DNA from: Allostella sp. ATCC 35155
GTDB lineage: Bacteria > Pseudomonadota > Alphaproteobacteria > ATCC43930 > Allostellaceae
Assembly: GCA_006738865.1 (NCBI GenBank)
Contig: AP019701.1
Span: 62,001-126,000 of the forward strand
DNA length: 64,000 bases
Direction: 5' to 3'
The position numbers were made by a program, and so were the translations under genes. The notes below the pieces were generated by a model. It searched no databases and was not told the DNA's origin. It was given only the letters and a program-made list of their open reading frames with translations. Each line of letters opens with the position of its first letter. The stretch's first letter is position 1. Below, one piece after another: positions 34,679-46,558 of this stretch.

Positions 34679-35755
34679 ATGACCGACCTCGAACCGCTGC
34701 GCGACCGCCTGATGGCGGCGGTCGCCGAGGCGGCCGACCTCGACCAGCTGGAGGCGGTGCGCCTCCAGTCGCTGGGCCGCAAGGGCGAGATCACCGAGCG
34801 GATGAAGACGCTGGGCGGCCTCGCGCCCGACGCGCGGCGCGCCGCCGGCCAGCAGCTCAACGAACTGAAGGATGCCGTTGCCGAGGCGCTGGAGGCGCGC
34901 CGCGCGGCACTGCAGGCGGACGCGCTGGACCGCCGCCTGGCGGCCGACCGCATCGACGTGACCCTGCCGCCGCGCCCGGCGGCCGAGGGCCGCATCCACC
35001 CGATCAGCCAGACCATCGACGAGCTGACCGCGATCTTCGCCGACATGGGCTTCACCGTCGCCGAGGGGCCGCACATCGAGGAGGATTTCTACAACTTCAC
35101 CGCCCTCAACATCCCGCCCGAGCATCCCGCGCGGCAGGAGCACGACACCTTCTACCTGCCGCCGCGCGCCGACGGCACCCGGCTGGTGCTGCGCACGCAC
35201 ACCTCGCCCGTGCAGATCCGGACCATGATGCGGGACAAGCCGCCGATCCGGATCATCGTGCCGGGCCGCACCTTCCGCTCGGATCATGACGCGACCCACT
35301 CGCCGATGTTCCATCAGGTCGAGGGGCTGGTCGTCGACCGCACGAGCCACATGGGCCACCTCAAGGGCTGCCTCATCGAGTTCTGCCGCGCCTTCTTCGA
35401 CATCGACGACCTGCCGGTGCGCTTCCGGCCGAGCTACTTCCCCTTCACGGAGCCCTCGGCGGAGGTCGATATCGGCTGCTCGCGCCAGGGCGGCCAGCTC
35501 CGGATCGGCCACGGCGCCGACTGGCTGGAGATTCTCGGCTGCGGCATGGTCCATCCGAAGGTTCTCGCCAACGCCGGCGTCGACCCGGGTGAGTACCAGG
35601 GCTTCGCCTTCGGCATGGGCATCGAGCGCATCGCGATGCTGAAATACGGCATTCCCGACCTGCGCACCTTCTACGAGTCCGACCTGCGCTGGCTGCGCCA
35701 CTACGGCTTCGTGCCGCTCGACGTGCCGACGCTCTCCGGGGGCCTGTCGCGATGA
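34679..35755 (+). CDS. pheS: Phenylalanine--tRNA ligase alpha subunit
   Basis: 358 residues. It holds the catalytic site of the (alpha-beta)2 enzyme that charges tRNA-Phe. An N-terminal coiled coil (about 1-85, [10 protein letters not shown] type) contacts tRNA; class II motif 2 ([22 protein letters not shown]) and motif 3 ([22 protein letters not shown]) are intact. The ATG at 34679 is placed 9 nt after GGGGA; ATG 34670 is an alternative. Its stop overlaps pheT (ATGA). Confidence 0.97.
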
Positions 35756-38154
35756 AGATCACCCTGTCCTGGCTGAAGGACCATCTTGAGACCGAGGCCG
35801 ACCTCGCGACGATCGCCCACCGCCTCACCATGCTGGGGCACGAGGTCGACGCGATCGACGACCCGGCGGCGCGCCTGTCCTCCTTCATCGTCGGCCATGT
35901 CGTCTCGGCCGTGCAGCATCCGAACGCCGACCGACTGCGCGTCTGCGTCGTCGATACCGGCGGCGACCGGGTGCAGGTGGTCTGCGGTGCGCCCAACGCG
36001 CGCGCCGGCATGAAGGGCGTCTTCGCGCGCGCCGGGACGGTCATTCCGCGCACGGGCCTGCTGCTGAAGGCCGGCGCGATCCGCGGCGAGGCCTCGAACG
36101 GGATGCTCTGCTCGGCATACGAGATGGGGCTGTCCGACGATCACGAAGGCATCATCGACCTGCCGACGGACGCGCCGGTCGGCCAGCCCTTCGCGCCGGT
36201 CATGGGCCTCGACGATCCGGTCCTCGACATCAAGATCACGCCCAACCGGGCCGACTGCCTGGGGATCCGCGGGATCGCCCGGGATCTTGCCGCCGCCGGC
36301 GTCGGGCGCCTCAAGGCGCGCCCGCCCGTCACCGTGCCGGGAGGCTTCGCCAGCCCGGTCGGCGTGCGCTTCGATCTGCCGGGAGAACTCGCCGCGGCCT
36401 GCCCGCTCTATGCCGGCCGCTACATCCGCGGCGTGCGCAACGGGCCGAGCCCGGCCTGGCTGCAGAAGCGCCTGCTCGCCGTCGGCCTGCGGCCGATCTC
36501 GGCGCTCGTCGACATCACGAACTTCTTCACCCTCGACATCGCCCGGCCGTTGCACGTCTTCGATGCCGACGCCGTGGCCGGCGACATCGTGGTGCGCATG
36601 TGCGTTCCGGGCGAGTCGCTGGAGGCGCTGAACGGCAAGGCCTACGAGCTCGAAGGCGAGATGACGGCGATCGCCGACGGCGACGGGGTCGTCGGGCTCG
36701 GCGGCGTCATCGGCGGCCAGGGCACGGGCTGCACCGAGGAGACGGTCAACGTCTTCGTCGAGTCCGCGCTGTTCGATCCCATCCGCACCGCGGCGACCGG
36801 GCGCCGCCTCGGGCTGCAGACCGATGCCCGCTACCGCTTCGAGCGCGGCGTCGATCCGGCCTCGGCCGTCGCCGGCATCGAGGCGGCGACGCGCATGATT
36901 CTCGACCTCTGCGGCGGCGAGGCCAGCGAGGTCGTGGTCACCGGTGCCGAGCCGGCGCATGCCCGCACCTTCGTCCTGCGTGACAGCCGGGTCGCGACCC
37001 TGGGCGGCCTGCCGGTGCCGCCCGAGGAATCGCGCCGCATCCTGGAAACCCTCGGCGCCACTGTCCGGCGCAGTGCCGACGCACTCGAGGTCGACGTCCC
37101 GTCCTGGCGTCCCGACATCGAGGGCGAGGCGGACCTCGTCGAGGAGGTCCTGCGGGTGCATGGCTATGACGCCATCCCCGTGGTGCCGCTGCCGCGCGAG
37201 CACGCGGTGACGCGGCCGGCGCTGACCCCCGCACAGCGACGGGTCGGCCACGCCCGGCGGGCCCTCGCCGGCCGGGGGATGGTCGAGGCCGTGACCTTCT
37301 CCTTCATGCCCGGCGGCGATGCCGCCCTGTTCGGCGGCGTCGGCGAGGCGTTGCGCCTCGTCAATCCGATCAGCGCCGACCTCGACGTGATGCGGCCGTC
37401 GGTGCTGCCCAACCTGATCGCCGCCGCCGGGCGCAATGCCGACCGGGGCTTCCCGGACGGCGCGCTCTTCGAGATCGGTGCGCACTATGCCGACGACACG
37501 CCGGAGGGGCAGGTGCTGGTGGCGGCCGGGATCCGCTCCGGCACGGCGGTCGAGCGCCACTGGACCGGCCCGGCCCGGCCCGTGGATGCCTACGACGCCA
37601 AGGGCGACGCACTGGCCGCGCTGTCGGCGCTGGGCGCACCGGTCGACAATCTCCAGACCTCGCTCGATGCGCCGGGCTGGTACCATCCCGGCCGCTCCGG
37701 CGTCCTGCGGCTCGGGCCGATCGCCGTCGCCCGCTTCGGCGAACTGCATCCGGCGGTGCTGCAGGCGATGGGCGTCAAGGGGCCGGTCGTCGGCTTCGAG
37801 GTGATGATCGACGCCGTTCCGCTGCCCCGGGGCAAGGGCGGCCACGCCCGGCCGGCCCTCACGCTCTCGCCGTTCCAGCCGGTGGGCCGCGACTTCGCCT
37901 TCCTGGTGGACGAGGCTGTCTCGGCCGAAGCCGTCCTCCGGGCAGTCCGCGCGGCCGAGCGCAAGCTGCTGGCGGGGGTGCGCATCTTCGACGTCTATCG
38001 TGGCCCGGGCGTGCCCGAAGGCCGCAAGTCGGTGGCGGTCGAGGTCGTGCTGCAGCCCGTCGGCGCAACGCTGACGGAAGAGGAGATCGACGCGGTCGCG
38101 GCGCGGATCGTGGCGCAGGTGGCGAAGGCGACCGGAGGCGTGCTGCGGGGATAG
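35752..38154 (+). CDS. pheT: Phenylalanine--tRNA ligase beta subunit
   Basis: 800 residues, full length. N-terminal helix and EMAP-like tRNA-binding domain ([26 protein letters not shown]), B3/B4 editing domain ([12 protein letters not shown]... [20 protein letters not shown]), B5 domain, catalytic-like core ([10 protein letters not shown]) and the C-terminal ferredoxin-fold anticodon domain ([44 protein letters not shown]). Overlaps pheS by 4 bp and is convergent with the ATP-grasp genes 21 bp later. Confidence 0.97.
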
Positions 38155-38175: not shown

Positions 38176-40005
38176 TCAGCGCAGCAGCAGGCGCCCGGCG
38201 ACCGCGGCGACCGTTGCGATACGGTCCACCAGCGGCGCGCCGTCCGCGAACCGGTCGATGCGGTCGGCATGGTCGCGGACGAGCGCGGCGATCGGCCCGG
38301 AGCTTGTCGCGGGAAGAAAGGCCTGGTCGATGCGGCCGATGCCCAGGCCGCGCCGGGCGAGCCGCCGGCCCGTCGTCCAATGCAGGGCGAGCCCGATCGT
38401 CGCGTCCTCCGCGATCCGGCCATGGGCGGCGCCGGTCGATGCCGGGGCGCCACCGGCCGGGAAGCCGTCCAGCACGACGCCGGACGGCCCCGCCAGACCG
38501 AGCGAGCGGATGGCGCCGAGCGCGGCCCGCACCGCGGGAAAGTTCGCGTCGGCGTCCAGGTCGACGACGAGCATCGTCGGCAGCCGCGCCGCCGCGGGAT
38601 CCGGGAAGTGATGCTCCAGGATGCGGCGCGCCAGGCGGTCGCCCTCGATGTCCCCGATGCTGGGGCGGGCGTTGGCCTCGAGCACGGCGATCCGCTGGTC
38701 CTGCCAGGGGCGGTCGAGCGCCTCGGCGCGGAAGTCGATCGCCACCACCGGCATCGCCAGGACATGCGCGATCCGCTCGAACAGCCGCAGCATCTCCGGG
38801 TGGGCCCGGGCGGTTTCGTTGGTCGGATAGCCGCCCAGCGACCGCACCGGCGCGGTGCGGACCATGACGCGATGCCCGGCCTCGGGCACGGTATCGAGCG
38901 CCAGCCCGGCCCTGGCGAGCGTCCAGCGCACTTCGTCGTCGACCTCCAGGGCGTATCCGGCCGGAAAGCGGGCCCGGCCGCGGCGGAGGTCCGCGTTGTG
39001 CGCGGCGATCAGCGCCGCGATCGTCCGCTCGCCGTCGCCCACGACGTAGGGACGGTTGCGCTGCATGACGATCGCCACCGCCCCGCCGATGACCGTGGCG
39101 CGGAAGTCCGGCGTATCGAGATAGGGCTCGATCATGGCGGCGGAGCCGTGCCGCGCCGCCCGGTCGTAGGCCTCTTCCGCCTCCTCCACGCTCTGGACGT
39201 CGAGCGCGACACCCTGGAACAGGGTTCCGTCGATCGGCTTGATGGCGACGGGAAAGCCGAGTTCGGCTGCGGCCCGGCCCGCCTCGGCCCGGTCGACGAC
39301 GACGCGGCAGGGCAGGACCGGGATGCCCAGGCCGGCCAGGAATCGTTTGGTCGCGAGCTTGCTGGGGGTCAGGGCCGCGCCCAGCGTCGCGGCGTTCAGC
39401 GGCGCGGAGCGATCGAACCGCACCTGGCGCCGACCCTCGCCGAACAGGATCGTGCCGGGCTGGAGGCGCGACGGGCGCCAGAGCAGCCCGAGGGCGCGCG
39501 CGGCCTCGACCATGAGCGGCGTGACCGGGTCGGCGCGGTCCGGGAGTTCCGACACCAGCCGGCGCAGCCGGGCGATCTCCTCCGCCAACCGCTCCGGCTG
39601 CCACCCGTCGCCGCCGGACAGCAGGTCCATGACGAAGCCGACGGCGACCTGGGCGGTGCTGCGCGCGATGCCCTCGGTCGCCGGCGAGATCAGGAACGCC
39701 CCCGGAGACCCTCGGGCAGGTCGCACGGCCTGCGTCCGCCGGTCATGGATGTGGGCGAGCAGGCACTCGGTCGTCGCCACCGCGAGATCGATCCCCGTCA
39801 CCACGGTGGGCATCTCCGGTGCATCGTCCAGGCCGGCTGCCCGGCAGCCGGACCGCCACCCCGCGAGCTGCGGCGCATCGACGGCATGCCCCAACGCCTC
39901 GGCGCGGAGGACATGCAGCAGGGTGCAGTCAGCCCTGCCCTCGAGCGACGGCCCTTCGATCGGGTGGATCGCGAGGTCGATGGACGGGGATGCCGGAGCG
40001 TTCAT
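38176..40005 (-). CDS. CphA-like ATP-grasp ligase, paralogue 1 of 3 (most downstream)
   Basis: 609 residues. Three regions can be read. An N domain (about 1-180) opens with EGPSLEG, comparable to the GPN/GPSL start of cyanophycin synthetase. A glutathione-synthetase-like ATP-grasp domain (about 190-475) has KLATKRFLAGLGIPVLPCRVV, the ATP lysine Lys256 (FPVAIKPIDG), Glu293 (MIEPYLDTPDFR), VVGDGERTIAALI and the metal motif E443-A-N445 (LEANARPSIGD). A C-terminal part (about 476-609) resembles the start of a Mur-ligase domain (EDATIGLALHW, RRGLGIGRIDQAFL) but without a P-loop. Probably an active amino-acid or peptide ligase. Overlaps paralogue 2 by ATGA. Its N domain is the most divergent of the three. 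Confidence 0.8.
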   Translation of the reverse strand: MNAPASPSIDLAIHPIEGPSLEGRADCTLLHVLRAEALGHAVDAPQLAGWRSGCRAAGLDDAPEMPTVVTGIDLAVATTECLLAHIHDRRTQAVRPARGSPGAFLISPATEGIARSTAQVAVGFVMDLLSGGDGWQPERLAEEIARLRRLVSELPDRADPVTPLMVEAARALGLLWRPSRLQPGTILFGEGRRQVRFDRSAPLNAATLGAALTPSKLATKRFLAGLGIPVLPCRVVVDRAEAGRAAAELGFPVAIKPIDGTLFQGVALDVQSVEEAEEAYDRAARHGSAAMIEPYLDTPDFRATVIGGAVAIVMQRNRPYVVGDGERTIAALIAAHNADLRRGRARFPAGYALEVDDEVRWTLARAGLALDTVPEAGHRVMVRTAPVRSLGGYPTNETARAHPEMLRLFERIAHVLAMPVVAIDFRAEALDRPWQDQRIAVLEANARPSIGDIEGDRLARRILEHHFPDPAAARLPTMLVVDLDADANFPAVRAALGAIRSLGLAGPSGVVLDGFPAGGAPASTGAAHGRIAEDATIGLALHWTTGRRLARRGLGIGRIDQAFLPATSSGPIAALVRDHADRIDRFADGAPLVDRIATVAAVAGRLLLR

Positions 40006-41798
40006 CGCGCGAGCCTTCCGGCTGCCGCGAGGATGGCCGGCGGCACCATCGCGCGGCCGTCCCAGCGTTCGATATGGCGCGCGAGCCGGCCGACGAGCGC
40101 CCGTAGGTCGCTCGGCGTCGCCGATTCGTCCGCGGGCATCCAGGCGACATCGATCACCGGGGCGCCGATGCCATTGCGGACCAGATCGTGCGGCGACGCC
40201 CAGTGGATCGCGACCGCCAGCGTGGGATCCTCGGTCATCCGCAGGTGCGCTTCTCCCGGATGCACCGGGACGGCCAGGCCGCCGAGATGCAGCCCCTCGG
40301 CGCTGCGCAGCCCGAAGGGCAGCAGATCCTGGTCGATCTGCCGGCGCAGGTGGGCCGGCCCATCGCCGGGGTTCCGATCGACCACCAGGATCGTCGGCAG
40401 GCGGACGGCCTCGGGATCGGGCGCGACCCGGCGGATGATGCGGTCGATCACCGGATGCCCGACAAAGTCGCCGAGGTTGGGGCGCGAGTTGTATTCGAGG
40501 ATGGCGAACCGCTGTGCCATCCAGGGCCGGTCGACGGCCTCCGCGCGGAAATCGATGGCAAAGACGGCGAGGTCGACCAAGTCTGCCAGCCGGCGGAACA
40601 GGGCGTCGATCGAGGGGTGCAGCTGGTCCGTCCGGTCGACGGGATGGCCGCCGATGTGCAGCAAGGGCGCCGTGCGCACCGTCACCCGCTGCCCGGCCTC
40701 CGGCACCGAGCCGACGGTCCGGCCGCCGCGGGCCAGCGTGCGGTCGACCTCCGCGTCGTGGCCGATCGGATGCCGGGCGGGGACGGACGGGTCATGCGCG
40801 GCCACCGCCCGGTCGTGCGCGGCGATGAGGGCACCGATCGTCGAACGGCCGTCGCCGACGACGGCAGGCGGCACCCGCTGGAAGACGAAGCGAGCGGCGC
40901 CGTCCACGACGACGGCGCGGAAGTCGGGCACCGCGAGAAACGGCTCGAACATCACGGCGGTCCCGTAGGGGCGCGCGGTCTCGAAGGCGGCTGCCGCCTC
41001 CGCCGGGGTGCGGACGTCCAGCGACAGGCCGTGGCCGAGCGAACCGTCGATCGGCTTGACGGCGATCGGATAGCCGATCGATTCCGCTGCTGCGGCCACG
41101 TCATTCATGTCGGTGACGACGCGTTCGGGCAGCACCGGCAGGCCGAAGCTGGACAGGTAGCGCTTGATGGCCAGTTTGTTGCGCGCGACCACGCCCCCGA
41201 AATGGCGTTCGCGCATCGACTTCAGGCCGTCGAAGAGGGTGAGATGCCGGCCCTCGCCGACGCGGACCAGCCCCGGATTGACCGTCGACCAGCTCCAGGG
41301 CAGACCGAGACGCGACAATCCTTCGACGAGTGGGCCTGCCAGCGGGCGGGCCGCGACGCTGGGCAGGCTGCCCGCCAAACCCCCGAGGGCATCGGCGGAC
41401 TGCCGCATCCGTACGACTGCCGCCGCCGGCGGTGAACCGGTCCGGGTCAGGTCGACCGACGCCACTGCCAGCCGGGCGGCCGAGACGGCCAGGCCGCGAT
41501 CCATCTCCGGCAACAGGAACTCGCCCGGCAGCGGCGCCCGGCGGATGGTCCAGGGGGGATCGCCGAGCGCCCGGGCCGCGAAGGCGCCGGTTGCCTCGGC
41601 CGCTGCTGCCTCGGCATCGGCGGCCTCGCCGACGGCGACGCCCAGCGCGCCGCACAGCGCGCGCCACCGTTCGCGCCAAGCGGCGTCCATGGCGGCCGCT
41701 CCGCCGATTCCCGGCGCGGCGAAGACGGTGACCGTCTCGTCGGCATGGAGGCTGGGGCCCGGAAGCCGGCGGATCGTGATCGGGATGCGCGTTGCCAT
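40002..41798 (-). CDS. CphA-like ATP-grasp ligase, paralogue 2 of 3 (middle)
   Basis: 598 residues from ATG 41798, which has GAGGA 10 nt upstream. ATG 41825 gives nine more residues and an ATGA overlap with the preceding gene; the choice is uncertain. Same layout as its neighbours: GPSL at 14-17, LGLPWSWSTVNPGLVRVGEGRHLTLFDG (about 164-191), LAIKRYLSSFGLPVLPERVV, Lys248 (YPIAVKPIDGSLGHG), Glu285 (FEPFLAVPDFR), VVGDGRSTIGALI, and metal motif E435-Y-N437 (LEYNSRPNLGDFVGH). The C-terminal remnant has LPTILVVDRNPGDGPAHL where CphA carries its P-loop, then HLRMTEDPTLAVAIHW and RNGIGAPVIDVAWM. Stop overlaps paralogue 1. Confidence 0.8.
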   Translation of the reverse strand: MATRIPITIRRLPGPSLHADETVTVFAAPGIGGAAAMDAAWRERWRALCGALGVAVGEAADAEAAAAEATGAFAARALGDPPWTIRRAPLPGEFLLPEMDRGLAVSAARLAVASVDLTRTGSPPAAAVVRMRQSADALGGLAGSLPSVAARPLAGPLVEGLSRLGLPWSWSTVNPGLVRVGEGRHLTLFDGLKSMRERHFGGVVARNKLAIKRYLSSFGLPVLPERVVTDMNDVAAAAESIGYPIAVKPIDGSLGHGLSLDVRTPAEAAAAFETARPYGTAVMFEPFLAVPDFRAVVVDGAARFVFQRVPPAVVGDGRSTIGALIAAHDRAVAAHDPSVPARHPIGHDAEVDRTLARGGRTVGSVPEAGQRVTVRTAPLLHIGGHPVDRTDQLHPSIDALFRRLADLVDLAVFAIDFRAEAVDRPWMAQRFAILEYNSRPNLGDFVGHPVIDRIIRRVAPDPEAVRLPTILVVDRNPGDGPAHLRRQIDQDLLPFGLRSAEGLHLGGLAVPVHPGEAHLRMTEDPTLAVAIHWASPHDLVRNGIGAPVIDVAWMPADESATPSDLRALVGRLARHIERWDGRAMVPPAILAAAGRLAR

Positions 41799-41821
41799 GG
41801 GAAGACGATCCTCGGCTGCGG

Positions 41822-43672
41822 TCATGACGAAAGGCCGCGCGGACGTGCCGGCGCGGCGGCCAGCAGTGCGACATCCGCCGCGACCGCCGCCATGTCGATG
41901 GCAGGGCAATCGCGCGTCCGGCGCGCACGGGATCGAACCAGTGCGATCGCCTCGGCCTCCAGGCGGACGGTCGGGGCCTCGTCCCCGCGCGCCATCGCGC
42001 CGGCGCCCGGTTCGGCCAGATGGGCGATGTCGATCACCGCGACGCCGAGGCCGAAACGGGCGACGTCCGCGGCCGTCCGGCAATGTACCGCGACCGCGAG
42101 CGTCGGATCCTCGATCATGCGCCGGTGCGCGCTGCCCGGCTCGATCGCGACGCGGATGTCGGCGAGGGCGAGATCGTCCGCCGTGGCGACGGCGGCGGGC
42201 AGGCCGCGGCAGGCAAACTCGTCGCGCAGGGCGGACGCTAGGACGGCCGGCTCGTCGCCGACGATCAGCAACGTCGGCAGGCGGATGGCTTCCAGGTCCG
42301 GTGCTATCGACCGAAGCAAGGTCGCGACCAGTGGGTGGCCTGCGAATATTCCGATATCGGGGCGTGCGTTGTACTCGAAGATGGCGAACCGCTGCGCGTC
42401 CCAGGCTTGCCCGATATCCTCGGCGCGAAAGTCTATGGCACAGCACGCCATGCCCGTGATCGATGCCAGACGCGCGAAGAGCGCCAGCGTACGGGGATGC
42501 GCCTCCGCCGTGGCGTCGGTTCCGTAGGCGCCGAGATCGCGCATCGGGAGGCGACGCAGAATCACCTGTTCGCCCACGGCAGGCACGGTTTCGAGAGAGC
42601 GGCCCGATCGCCGCAGCGTCTGCTCTACGTCGAAGTCCACCGTCACCGGGTAATGTGCCGGAAAGGCCGCTCGCTGCTCCGTGACGGCACGGTTGTGTTC
42701 GGCCAGTAGGCCGGCGATGTCCGTCCGGCCGTTCCCGGTCAGATAGGGCGGATCGCGGCGGAGGACGTTCACCACCTGCGTCCCGACCATGATCGCCCGG
42801 AAGTCCGGAAGATCGAGATAGGGTTCGATCATGACGGCCGAACCTTCGCTCCGCGCCCGCCCGAACGCGTCGGGCATCTCCTCCGCTTTCCGCACATCCA
42901 GGGTGACGCCGCGCGCCCGCGATCCGTCGACCGGCTTGACCGCGACCGGATAGCCGAGTTCGGCGGCGGCCGCCGCGGCCTCCTCTTCGCGCCGCGCGAT
43001 GCGGTCGGGAAGGACCGGCAGGCCGAAGCCGGCGAGATAGCGCTTCATCGCGGGCTTGCTCGCCGCGAGCTGGGAGCCCATGACCGGTCGATCCATGGGG
43101 CTCGCGCCGTCGAGCAGCGTCAGGTGCCGGCCTTCACCGATCCGGATCAAACCCGGCTGGGTCGTCGACCAGCCCCAGGGAATGCCCAACCGCTCGGCCG
43201 CCCCCGCCACGACGCCGTCGACCCGACGGGCCGGCGGCGCGGGCTGCGACCGTGCCAGCCGGTACAGGCGTCCGGTCGCCTGGCGCAGGCGCTCGATCTC
43301 GGCCTGCGGTACCGTTTCTGAGCATGCCAGACCGGCCGTGGCCGAGACGATGCCCGCGGCGCGCTCGGCGATGGCCGGCGGCATGTCCGGAAGGACATAG
43401 GCTCCAGGCTCCGCAGAGGATCGGACCGCAGCCGGCTCGCGGTCGAGCGCGGCGGCCGCCAGTGCCTCCGTAGCTGCCGCAACGGCGCGCGCCGGGTCGT
43501 CGGACGTATCGGGCGGAAGGGCGGATGGTCCGATCATCGCGGCGAGCCGGCGCCATCTCGCGCGCCATGCCGCGTCCATCCGGGGGGCGTCGACGGCCAC
43601 GATCGTGACCGTCTCCGGCCCATCGAGGCTCGGCCCGTGCGCCCGGCGCGTCGTCGCTGCGATGTTTGCCAT
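41822..43672 (-). CDS. CphA-like ATP-grasp ligase, paralogue 3 of 3 (first in the operon)
   Basis: 616 residues. N domain to about 160 (GPSL at 13-16), then LGIPWGWSTTQPGLIRIGEGRHLTLLDG as in CphA before the G domain. The ATP-grasp part shows KPAMKRYLAGFGLPVLPDRI, Lys246 (YPVAVKPVDGSRARG), Glu283 (MIEPYLDLPDFR), GNGRTDIAGLLAEHN and E433-Y-N435 (FEYNARPDIGIFAGH). The C-terminal 150 residues read LPTLLIVGDEPAVLASALRD, where a Mur-type P-loop (GTNGKTTT) would be expected, followed by SAHRRMIEDPTLAVAVH and FGLGVAVIDIAHLAE, which align by eye with the SARMVLRDPTV and GLGFDRCDVGV parts of CphA. It starts 72 bp after serA in the same direction. Confidence 0.8.
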   Translation of the reverse strand: MANIAATTRRAHGPSLDGPETVTIVAVDAPRMDAAWRARWRRLAAMIGPSALPPDTSDDPARAVAAATEALAAAALDREPAAVRSSAEPGAYVLPDMPPAIAERAAGIVSATAGLACSETVPQAEIERLRQATGRLYRLARSQPAPPARRVDGVVAGAAERLGIPWGWSTTQPGLIRIGEGRHLTLLDGASPMDRPVMGSQLAASKPAMKRYLAGFGLPVLPDRIARREEEAAAAAAELGYPVAVKPVDGSRARGVTLDVRKAEEMPDAFGRARSEGSAVMIEPYLDLPDFRAIMVGTQVVNVLRRDPPYLTGNGRTDIAGLLAEHNRAVTEQRAAFPAHYPVTVDFDVEQTLRRSGRSLETVPAVGEQVILRRLPMRDLGAYGTDATAEAHPRTLALFARLASITGMACCAIDFRAEDIGQAWDAQRFAIFEYNARPDIGIFAGHPLVATLLRSIAPDLEAIRLPTLLIVGDEPAVLASALRDEFACRGLPAAVATADDLALADIRVAIEPGSAHRRMIEDPTLAVAVHCRTAADVARFGLGVAVIDIAHLAEPGAGAMARGDEAPTVRLEAEAIALVRSRARRTRDCPAIDMAAVAADVALLAAAPARPRGLSS

Positions 43673-43744: not shown

Positions 43745-45322
43745 CTAGAAGTGGATGGTCTTCCCCTGGACCACGTGGGGCAGGGCGCGCACCGCCGCCA
43801 GCAGGGCCTCGTCGACCGGCTGGTCGACCTGCACGAGGCAGATCGCGTCCTCGCCCGGGCCGGTGCGGCCGAGATGGAAGCTCGCGATATTGACGCCGGC
43901 ATCGCCCAGCGTCCGCCCCAGCGCACCGATGAAGCCCGGCTTGTCGCGGTTGCGGACGAACAGCATCGGCCCGTCGAGTTCCGCCTCGAAGGCCATGTCC
44001 TGGACCTCGACGACGCGCGGCCGGGTGCCGCCGAAGAGGGAGCCGGCCACCGTCCGGACGCGCTCGCCGCAGGTGACCGACACCCGCAGCAGCGTCTGGT
44101 AGTCGGGCGTGCGCGTGCCGGTAACCTCGCTCACCTTCATGTTGCGCTCGCGGGCGAAGACGGGCGCCGACACCATGTTGACGCTCTCCAGCTGCGGTGC
44201 CAGCAGGCCCGTCAGCATGGCGGCCGTCACCGGCTTGGTGTTGATGGCGGCGGCATCGCCCTCGAAGCTGATCTCGACGGCCTCGATCGGCTCCTCGGTG
44301 AGCTGCCCCGCGAAGCTGCCGAGCTGTTCGGCCAGGCGCATGTAGGGCCGCAGCGTCGCCGCCTCCTCCGCGGAGACCGAAGGCATGTTGATGGCGTTGA
44401 CGACGGCGCCGGTCAGCAGGAAGTCGGCCATCTGCTCGGCCACCTGGAGCGCCACGTTCTCCTGAGCCTCGCCGGTCGATGCGCCGAGGTGCGGGGTGAC
44501 GATCACGTCGTCGCGGCCGAAGAGGGGGCTTGCGAGCGCCGGTTCGACGGCGAAGACGTCGATCGCCGCCCCGGCGACCTGTCCCGAATCGAGCGCGGCG
44601 ACCAGCGCCGCCTCGTCGATCAGGCCGCCGCGGGCGCAGTTCACGACGCGCACGCCGGTCCGCATCTTCGCGATCGCGGCCGCGTCGATGATGTTCCGCG
44701 TCGCCTCGGTCAGCGGCGTGTGCAGGGTGATGAAGTCGGCCCGCGCGAAGAGCTGGTCGAGATCGACCTTGTCGACGCCGAGGGCGCGGGCGCGCTCCTC
44801 CGTGAGGAACGGATCGTAGGCGACGACCTTCATCTTCAGCCCGATGGCCCGCTCGGCGACGATGGCGCCGATGTTGCCGCAGCCGATCACGCCCAGCGTC
44901 TTGGCCGTGACCTCGACGCCCATGAACCGGTTCTTCTCCCACTTGCCGGCCTGGGTCGAGCGGTCGGCGGCCGGGATCTGGCGGGCCAGCGACAGCATCA
45001 GCGCGATCGCGTGCTCGGCCGTGGTGATCGAGTTGCCGAAGGGCGTGTTCATCACGACGATGCCGCGGGCGGTGGCGGCGCCGACATCGATGTTGTCGAC
45101 GCCGATGCCGGCGCGGCCGATGACCTTGAGGCGGTCGGCCACCGCCAGGGCCTCGCGGGTCGCCTTGGTGGCCGAGCGGACGGCGAGCCCGTCATAGCCG
45201 CCGATGATGGCGCGCAGTTCGGCCGGCTTCAGGCCGGTCTTCACATCGACCTCGATGCCGCGGCGGCGGAAGATCTCGACCGCGCGCGGGGACAGGGAAT
45301 CGGCGATCAGCACCTTGGGCAT
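43745..45322 (-). CDS. serA: D-3-phosphoglycerate dehydrogenase (long form)
   Basis: 525 residues. It oxidises 3-phosphoglycerate in the first step of serine synthesis. NAD motif LGVIGCGNIGAIVAERAIGLKMKVVAYDP; catalytic Arg, Glu and His in NCARGGLIDEAALVAAL and IVTPHLGAST; then the ASB domain (FEGDAAAINTKPVTAAML) and a C-terminal ACT domain (FVRNRDKPGFIGALGRTLGDAGVNIASFHLGR), so serine feedback inhibition is possible. It follows serC by 75 bp and precedes the ATP-grasp trio. Confidence 0.97.
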   Translation of the reverse strand: MPKVLIADSLSPRAVEIFRRRGIEVDVKTGLKPAELRAIIGGYDGLAVRSATKATREALAVADRLKVIGRAGIGVDNIDVGAATARGIVVMNTPFGNSITTAEHAIALMLSLARQIPAADRSTQAGKWEKNRFMGVEVTAKTLGVIGCGNIGAIVAERAIGLKMKVVAYDPFLTEERARALGVDKVDLDQLFARADFITLHTPLTEATRNIIDAAAIAKMRTGVRVVNCARGGLIDEAALVAALDSGQVAGAAIDVFAVEPALASPLFGRDDVIVTPHLGASTGEAQENVALQVAEQMADFLLTGAVVNAINMPSVSAEEAATLRPYMRLAEQLGSFAGQLTEEPIEAVEISFEGDAAAINTKPVTAAMLTGLLAPQLESVNMVSAPVFARERNMKVSEVTGTRTPDYQTLLRVSVTCGERVRTVAGSLFGGTRPRVVEVQDMAFEAELDGPMLFVRNRDKPGFIGALGRTLGDAGVNIASFHLGRTGPGEDAICLVQVDQPVDEALLAAVRALPHVVQGKTIHF

Positions 45323-45397: not shown

Positions 45398-46558
45398 TCA
45401 GGCCGCGGCGGCGCGGGTCTCTTCGGACCAGGCCCAGTCGAGCCACAGGCAGAGCGCCTGGATGTCGGCGGTCTCGACCGTCGCGCCACACCAGATGCGC
45501 AGGCCGGCGGGCGCCGCGCGATGGCCGGCGATGTCGTAGGCCACGCCCGCCTGCTCGAGCCGGCGGGCGAGATCCTTGACGCCCGCCTGCTGCGCCTCGT
45601 CGGACAGGGCGGCGAACCGGGGATCGACGATCGCCAGGCAGACCGAGGTCCAGGAGCGCGATGCGGGGTCGCGGGCGAGGAAGTCGATCCAGGGCGTCCG
45701 CTCGACCCAGTCGGCCAGCGCCGCGAAATTCGCCTTCGAGCGGCCGACGAGCCCCTCCAGCCCGCCGACCTGCTCGGCCCAGCGCAGCGAGTCGAGCGCA
45801 TCCTCGACGCACAGCATCGAGGGCGTGTTGATCGTCTCGCCCTGGAAGATGCCCTCGTTCAGCTTGCCGCCGGAGGTGAGGCGGAAGAGCTTGGGCATCG
45901 GCCAGGCCGGCTTGTGCTGCTCCAGTCGCTCCACGGCGCGGGGCGACAGCGCCAGCATGCCGTGCGCGGCCTCGCCGCCCAGCGCCTTCTGCCAGGACCA
46001 GGTGACGACGTCGAGCCGGTCCCAGGGCAGCGCCATGGCATAGGCGGCCGAGGTGGCGTCGCAGATGGTGAGGCCGGCGCGGTCCGGCCTGATCCAGTCC
46101 GCGTTCGGCAGGCAGACGCCCGACGTGGTGCCGTTCCAGGTGAAGACGACATCGCGGTCGGTGTCGACCTGGGAGAGGTCGGGCAGGCTGCCATAGGGCG
46201 CGGCGAAGGTGCGCACGTCGGCAAGGCGCAGCTGCTTGCGGATGTCGGCGTCCCAGGTCTCGCCGAAATTCTCCCAGGCCAGCACGTCGACCCCGCGCGG
46301 GCCGAGCAGCGACCACAGCGCCATCTCGACGGCGCCCGTGTCGGAGGCGGGCACGATCGCCAGCCGCCAGTCGGCCGGCATCCGCAGCACCGCGCGGCTG
46401 CGGTCGATCACGTCCTTGAGCTTGGCCCGGCCGGGTTTCGCCCGGTGCGAGCGCCCGAGGAAGGCGCCTTCCAGTTCGGAGAGGCTCCAGCCCGGGCGCT
46501 TGGCGCATGGGCCGGAAGAAAAGCAGGGGTTCGCAGGTCGCACTGCGGGCGTCGTCAT
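45398..46558 (-). CDS. serC: Phosphoserine aminotransferase (alphaproteobacterial type)
   Basis: 386 residues, PLP-dependent class V. Converts 3-phosphohydroxypyruvate to phosphoserine. Begins with [20 protein letters not shown], and [23 protein letters not shown] and [19 protein letters not shown] (PLP lysine in SWQK) are typical of the alphaproteobacterial SerC branch (TIGR01365). First gene of the serC-serA-(ATP-grasp)3 run. Its leader contains two tandem hairpins with a shared GYAGCCA tail. Confidence 0.96.

Follow-up and report, generated by a model that had tools for sequence, protein, structure and literature searches.

Tandem CphA-like ligases of Stella: a putative ATP-grasp repertoire with altered substrate pockets

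Three adjacent genes of Stella sp. ATCC 35155, a member of a genus of star-shaped bacteria, encode ligases which, judged by their sequences, have a CphA2-like build, yet are not CphA2, and whose peptide-like products are probably assembled from units that differ from those of cyanophycin. We put at about even the proposition that the triplet consists of active ATP-grasp amide ligases of diversified specificity, forming a parallel repertoire for peptide-like or polyamide products.

Gene organisation and domain plan

The window (the whole stretch of DNA analysed, 64,000 nucleotides) belongs to the 5,339,096-base genome AP019701 of Stella sp. ATCC 35155 (PMC6687932). The first-pass annotation had described three adjacent genes of 609, 598 and 616 codons with a shared plan and shared motifs, a description borne out by the complete open reading frames of all three genes on the minus strand, the pairwise identity of 39-44% among their products (P0001-P0003) and the recovery of the motifs. 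The features of the locus are the following (window coordinates):

41822..43672, minus strand: paralogue 1 (P0001), 616 amino acids, CphA-like N and G domains and shortened M core; first gene after serA
40002..41798, minus strand: paralogue 2 (P0002), 598 amino acids, CphA-like ligase
38176..40005, minus strand: paralogue 3 (P0003), 609 amino acids, CphA-like ligase
40413..41348, minus strand: G (ATP-grasp) domain of paralogue 2, residues about 151-462
40005..40406, minus strand: shortened Mur-ligase-like M core of paralogue 2, C-terminal, residues about 465-598; GTNGKT P-loop absent
43745..45322, minus strand: serA (phosphoglycerate dehydrogenase), next upstream of paralogue 1 across a 72-nt gap
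45398..46558, minus strand: serC (phosphoserine transaminase), upstream of serA
35752..38154, plus strand: pheT, convergent; downstream boundary of the ligase array

The junctions had been noted earlier as ATGA-type or close. Paralogues 2 and 3 overlap by four nucleotides (ATGA); paralogues 1 and 2 do so only via an alternative start, an in-frame ATG which overlaps the TGA of paralogue 1 (again ATGA) and yields a paralogue 2 of 607 amino acids; the start of the 598-residue form lies downstream of it. Neither a promoter-like nor a minus-strand terminator-like site stood out in the gap between serA and the triplet. Each of the four Stella genomes has serA next to these ligases. In the sister family, three genomes carry two different genes after serC-serA (identified by eye as hisZ and purA) and no ligase; the neighbourhood of serA and the ligases may thus be a chance rearrangement, and a role in the serine pathway, considered on account of the serA linkage, was dropped. 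A role in anti-phage defence was also rejected, there being no PADLOC match.

The best NCBIfam match of each protein was cyanophycin synthetase (E = 5e-53, 9e-49 and 6e-60 for P0001, P0002 and P0003, respectively). The scores of 166-203 bits with NF010623 (cut-off 877) and of 158-189 bits with TIGR02068 do not reach the curated CphA1 cut-offs (877 or 850 bits). The best sequence matches in the PDB were CphA1 (E 1e-36 to 5e-41), and the alignments with solved CphA1 extend into the Mur-ligase domain; Pfam returned ATP-grasp fragments only and no Mur match. The earlier identification of CphA-like N and G domains, with an intact ATP-grasp site, is upheld. The statement that the Mur part is absent is correct inasmuch as the P-loop is lost and no working Mur ligase is present, but a shortened M core is there: the last 130-150 residues or so correspond to an M-domain core without the GTNGKT P-loop, with A, G or D at the position of the P-loop lysine in the triplet (residue table). 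In CphA1, the M domain with its GTNGKT P-loop is responsible for the addition of arginine.

An AlphaFold2 model of P0002 (mean pLDDT 92.2, pTM 0.84) matched TeCphA1 (7wae; Z 28.8, rmsd 4.8, 578 residues) and CphA2 (7ta5; Z 24.9, rmsd 7.8, 550 residues; and 8fxi; Z 20.6, rmsd 7.7, 568 residues), the structural match spanning CphA1 residues 1-709; since the 36-row alignment used as model input included CphA sequences, the fold match and the evidence from sequence are not independent of each other. The hydrolytic Cx19HxxEH motif of the N domain is absent from the ligases and is likewise missing in CphA2 (PMC9262961). The predicted plan of the triplet is that of CphA2: an N domain followed by an ATP-grasp G domain and an M core that is shortened and lacks the P-loop.

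ATP site and substrate pocket

In TeCphA1, the phosphates of ATP are bound by K220 and K261 and Mg is held by D431 and E450; R309 and R323 touch the reacting carboxylates and H267 stabilises the acyl phosphate, while the arginine of the chain is bound by E215 and the incoming aspartate by N394, R323 and R458 (PMC9427784). K208, K248, R294, R308, D416, E435 and N437 of P0002 are the equivalents of TeCphA1 K220, K261, R309, R323, D431, E450 and N452, respectively. The counterparts of K220, K261, R309, D431 and E450 are identical in about 38 Stella proteins and in all the CphA sequences used for comparison, and those of R323 and N452 do not vary either among the nine closest Stella proteins. With the two ATP lysines, the Mg-binding Asp and Glu with the E-x-N motif and the γ-phosphate arginine in place in P0001-P0003, and unchanged across 36 aligned relatives, the three proteins are assigned to the ATP-grasp ligase superfamily. 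GPSL, KPVDG/KPIDG, E-x-N and the conserved ATP-grasp residues occur in all three paralogues as annotated, but of the VxGDGRxTIxxLI motif, also listed as shared, gene 2 has an exact copy, gene 3 a close one and gene 1 an altered form (LTGNGRTDIAGLL).

The residues at the TeCphA1 positions are:

P0001: K, K, R, R, D, E and N kept; E215 to Q, H267 to R, N394 to M, S396 to D, R458 to G
P0002: E215 to V, H267 to L, N394 to L, S396 to H, R458 to G
P0003: E215 to A, H267 to L, N394 to V, S396 kept as S, R458 to G

R323 is kept throughout the triplet, E215, H267, N394 and R458 are replaced in all three paralogues, and S396 is found in paralogue 3 only. Across the nine-member Stella group the N394 column is always hydrophobic, the R458 column never holds Arg, L, R, G and F are the residues found in the H267 column, and seven different residues occur among the nine sequences at E215, a column at the 99th percentile of variability. 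The 15 CphA1 compared show no variation at N394, S396 and R458. This pattern suggests purifying selection on the ATP engine and a substrate pocket unlike that of CphA. The view of the triplet as divergent paralogues that probably differ in substrate is supported.

It would be tempting to regard the triplet as CphA2-type enzymes which re-polymerise β-Asp-Arg dipeptides to cyanophycin, given the same domain plan, the similar length, the CphA2 structures among the best fold matches and the shared absence of Cx19HxxEH (PMC9262961). We consider this highly improbable. No cyanophycinase (TIGR02069) that could supply β-Asp-Arg was detected in any of the four Stella genomes (the control was positive in 5 of 14), which speaks against a recycling role and extends to whole genomes the earlier remark that a cyanophycinase neighbour is missing. 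Cyanobacterial truncated proteins retain N394 and S396, whereas the triplet lacks N394 and R458, and a FastTree phylogeny places the truncated proteins of Leptolyngbya, used as representatives of CphA2, outside the Stella clade. The Stella-only clade, the lack of a detected cyanophycinase and the loss of residues kept in CphA2 together argue that the triplet is not CphA2.

Distribution, descent and rate of divergence

The genomes of Stella sp. ATCC 35155, S. humosa, a Stella-like MAG and S. vacuolata contain 13, 12, 13 and 3 homologues, respectively. At the serA-pheT site there are three copies in ATCC 35155, two in S. humosa, one in S. vacuolata and at least two in the MAG, the last count being a lower bound as the contig ends there. 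A search of 39 further genomes of the order gave no homologue at E <= 1e-15, and the 385 genomes screened from the class contained no close relative; across 398 genomes from the phylum, members of the group scored 886-902 bits and nothing outside Stella exceeded 247. These genome sets are samples, and absence elsewhere is not proven by them. Among the matches listed, the best non-Stella relatives in named genomes share about 25-33% identity, and most of them are full CphA1. In genome contigs, a search with a single protein returned none of the relatives, which were found by an alignment-based search. No report of a CphA-like expansion in Stella was found in open-licence papers. By these comparisons the ligases of the triplet form a Stella-only clade, lineage-specific among the genomes sampled.

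The nine-member Stella group is supported at 100/100. Within it P0003 pairs with an S. humosa gene (51% identity; support 99/99), while a second set (100/100) unites P0001, P0002, L009 (a solo paralogue elsewhere in the ATCC 35155 genome) and one gene each from S. humosa and S. vacuolata; the branching inside this second set lacks resolution. As both sets have members from other species, the deepest duplication is older than the species split. A recent duplication confined to one strain, which would have undermined the first-pass annotation, is therefore compatible with the finding of three copies only here, but not with the age of that deepest duplication.

The annotation had envisaged three successive or alternative ligation steps. 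That the genes are dedicated to three successive ligations of one pathway, leading to one small peptide, would accord with their adjacency, their tight spacing and their differing pocket residues; we nevertheless hold it to be decidedly unlikely, for the same site carries one, two, at least two or three copies in the four Stella genomes, and paralogue 3 clusters with a type of gene that S. vacuolata lacks. A fixed three-step order is not required by these copy numbers; alternative specificities, gained and lost by birth and death, fit better. The homologue numbers of 13, 12, 13 and 3, with the one to three copies at the site, thus favour a parallel repertoire.

The ligases have diverged far more than their surroundings: between Stella genomes, identity is 83-95% for flanking genes and does not exceed 52% for the ligases. 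For serA, serC and pheT (83-92% identity) dN/dS is 0.15-0.24, for the ligase pairs (41-51%) about 0.44-0.69, and for single-copy ligases at other syntenic loci 0.38-0.8 against 0.07-0.25 in their flanks, all by the Nei-Gojobori method, which is rough at this divergence. Synonymous divergence of the ligases is about 0.8, roughly twice that of the flanks (0.3-0.5); some pairs may hence be hidden paralogues, and the excess in rate may partly reflect age. Relaxed constraint can also raise the dN/dS of the ligases. The proteins could accordingly be seen as remnants of a cyanophycin synthetase under relaxed selection and heading for loss, as might be read from the lost Mur P-loop, the raised dN/dS, the losses in some lineages and the absence of the P-loop lysine from the S. 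humosa counterpart of the full-length CphA. This we judge unlikely: open reading frames of about 600 codons are intact in four species, seven ATP, Mg and arginine positions are strictly conserved in the group, dN/dS is well below 1, and duplication followed by retention has recurred at several loci. The strict conservation of the catalytic residues itself argues against simple decay.

Partner genes, proposed function and known systems

A gene for an aKG-HExxH peptide β-hydroxylase (TIGR04267), a type present in just 6 of 289 genomes of the class, lies directly upstream of one related ligase in all four Stella genomes; it adjoins another ligase subclade, not the triplet. With a dN/dS of 0.36-0.46 this partner evolves as fast as its ligase. 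Enzymes of the aKG-HExxH class β-hydroxylate Asp, His or Gln of ribosomal peptides (PMC12636437). The pairing hints that the products of the ligase family are peptides, possibly modified ones. No CphA-like gene was found near aKG-HExxH genes at five other alphaproteobacterial loci; at one of these five there is a peptide with repeats, as is typical for precursors of RiPPs. The transporter beside L013:2874 was considered as an iron transporter and rejected; its binding protein most resembles proteins of the 2-aminoethylphosphonate type, with a score below the cut-off.

The ligases might instead modify ribosomal peptides or proteins, in the manner of RimK or graspetide ligases, rather than join free amino acids. 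Their ATP-grasp fold is common to RimK, ArgX and the macrocyclase AMdnB, and the aKG-HExxH partner of the related ligase belongs to a class known from RiPP clusters. This alternative appears quite unlikely to us: inspection of the triplet locus, with its packed genes and a gap of only 72 nt between serA and gene 1, revealed no precursor-like small gene, although a precursor may be encoded at a distance; a CphA-type N domain and M core are kept, unlike in RimK or graspetide ligases; and the whole-protein matches to CphA are far stronger.

We propose instead that the ligases derive from the cyanophycin synthetase superfamily, reduced to the CphA2 plan, and act as ATP-grasp carboxylate-amine ligases. 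Following the chemistry of the CphA G domain, ATP would turn a carboxylate into an acyl phosphate for attack by an amine, and each paralogue would have its own incoming amino acid and/or acceptor in place of aspartate and the cyanophycin chain; the M core would be structural only. The paralogues would represent a changing parallel repertoire, not three fixed steps, for small peptide-like or polyamide products, and at least one related Stella locus would probably give a β-hydroxylated peptide. It counts against this proposal that the triplet locus showed neither a dedicated exporter nor a gene for a protease or a precursor peptide. More tentatively, Stella may possess a genus-private, fast-diversifying repertoire of up to 13 CphA-derived ligases per genome which makes novel NRPS-independent peptides or polyamides, some of them β-hydroxylated by aKG-HExxH enzymes on a non-ribosomal substrate; we regard this wider reading as possible, though short of probable.

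To our knowledge, cyanophycin synthetases (CphA) have been linked to a single polymer, the nitrogen polymer cyanophycin. In Stella, by these data, one genus appears to carry many copies of the CphA scaffold, with the ATP engine untouched and the substrate pockets rewritten. If the products differ, Stella would offer a natural series for specificity change in ATP-grasp amide ligases, and would open a way to make new peptides or polyamides with neither ribosomes nor NRPS.

Among known systems, CphA2 (PDB 7ta5, 8fxh, 8fxi) shares with the triplet the N and G domains and shortened M domain, the length of about 600-640 residues, the absence of a working Mur ligase and the intact ATP-grasp site. The triplet differs in falling in another clade, in the changed Asn394 (Asp site) and Arg458 positions, in being tandem, copy-variable, fast-evolving and alphaproteobacterial (Stella), and in that a β-Asp-Arg route is improbable without a cyanophycinase. 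With CphA1 (PDB 7wae, 7lg5, 7lgn) it shares whole-length homology to about residue 709, the ATP- and Mg-binding residues and Arg309/Arg323; unlike CphA1 it has no Mur P-loop, complete M domain or primer-making motif in the N domain, and E215, H267, N394 and R458 are lost or variable. N-acetylglutaminylglutamine synthetase (TIGR03103) is a relative in the ATP-grasp G domain and the third-best NCBIfam match (91-114 bits), but the triplet remains far below its cut-off of 569 and matches by the G domain alone. The GshAB/GshF module, RimK, ArgX, LysX and graspetide macrocyclases (AMdnB) have the ATP-grasp fold and acyl-phosphate chemistry in common with the triplet, whereas only the G domain matches and the N and M domains have no counterpart in them.

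Ligase paired with an aKG-HExxH enzyme

Coordinates are local to each locus:
L012:7503-8492 (ATCC 35155 genome ~1954503-1955492; corresponding loci L063, L058, L149), aKG-HExxH-type peptide beta-hydroxylase gene (TIGR04267)
L157:8193-8486, another alphaproteobacterial genome, 97-aa ORF with LDTT...PQTGK repeats

A CphA-like (cyanophycin synthetase-like) ligase gene lies directly downstream of the TIGR04267 gene in all four Stella genomes, and both diverge much faster than the surrounding genes. On an unsystematic look, no RiPP precursor stood out beside this pair. Outside Stella, the repeat ORF of L157, followed by an aKG-HExxH gene, is probably a RiPP precursor.

Further CphA-like ligases

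L015:6296-13162 and L059:4844-11857, second array of three tandem CphA-like genes
L013:2874-7198 and L013:11544-14956, two CphA-like ligases, each adjoining an ABC-transporter binding-protein gene
L010:8054-10300 and L061:7027-9369, CphA-like ligase whose N terminus carries a TPR region (TPR_19 match)

Gene 3 of the second array, at only ~400 aa, codes for half a ligase. Next to this array lie a histidine kinase gene and periplasmic binding proteins of the oligopeptide type. The binding proteins beside the L013 ligases are 2-aminoethylphosphonate-like and glutathione/oligopeptide-like, a layout that S. humosa keeps. The TPR-bearing type is not private to Stella, since proteins of Novosphingobium, Burkholderiales and Chlorobiaceae lacking the Mur P-loop group with it.

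Full-length CphA-like protein

L014:8626-11628, full-length CphA-like protein with the Mur P-loop (one in ATCC 35155)
L062:6701-8848, S. humosa counterpart

In both loci a large gene follows, 44% identical between ATCC 35155 and S. humosa and, in the former, of the glycosyltransferase/TPR type. The P-loop lysine is missing from the S. humosa counterpart. The ATCC 35155 protein scores 724 bits, below the 877-bit cut-off of the curated NCBIfam cyanophycin synthetase model, and carries K at the position of H267 (TeCphA1 numbering).
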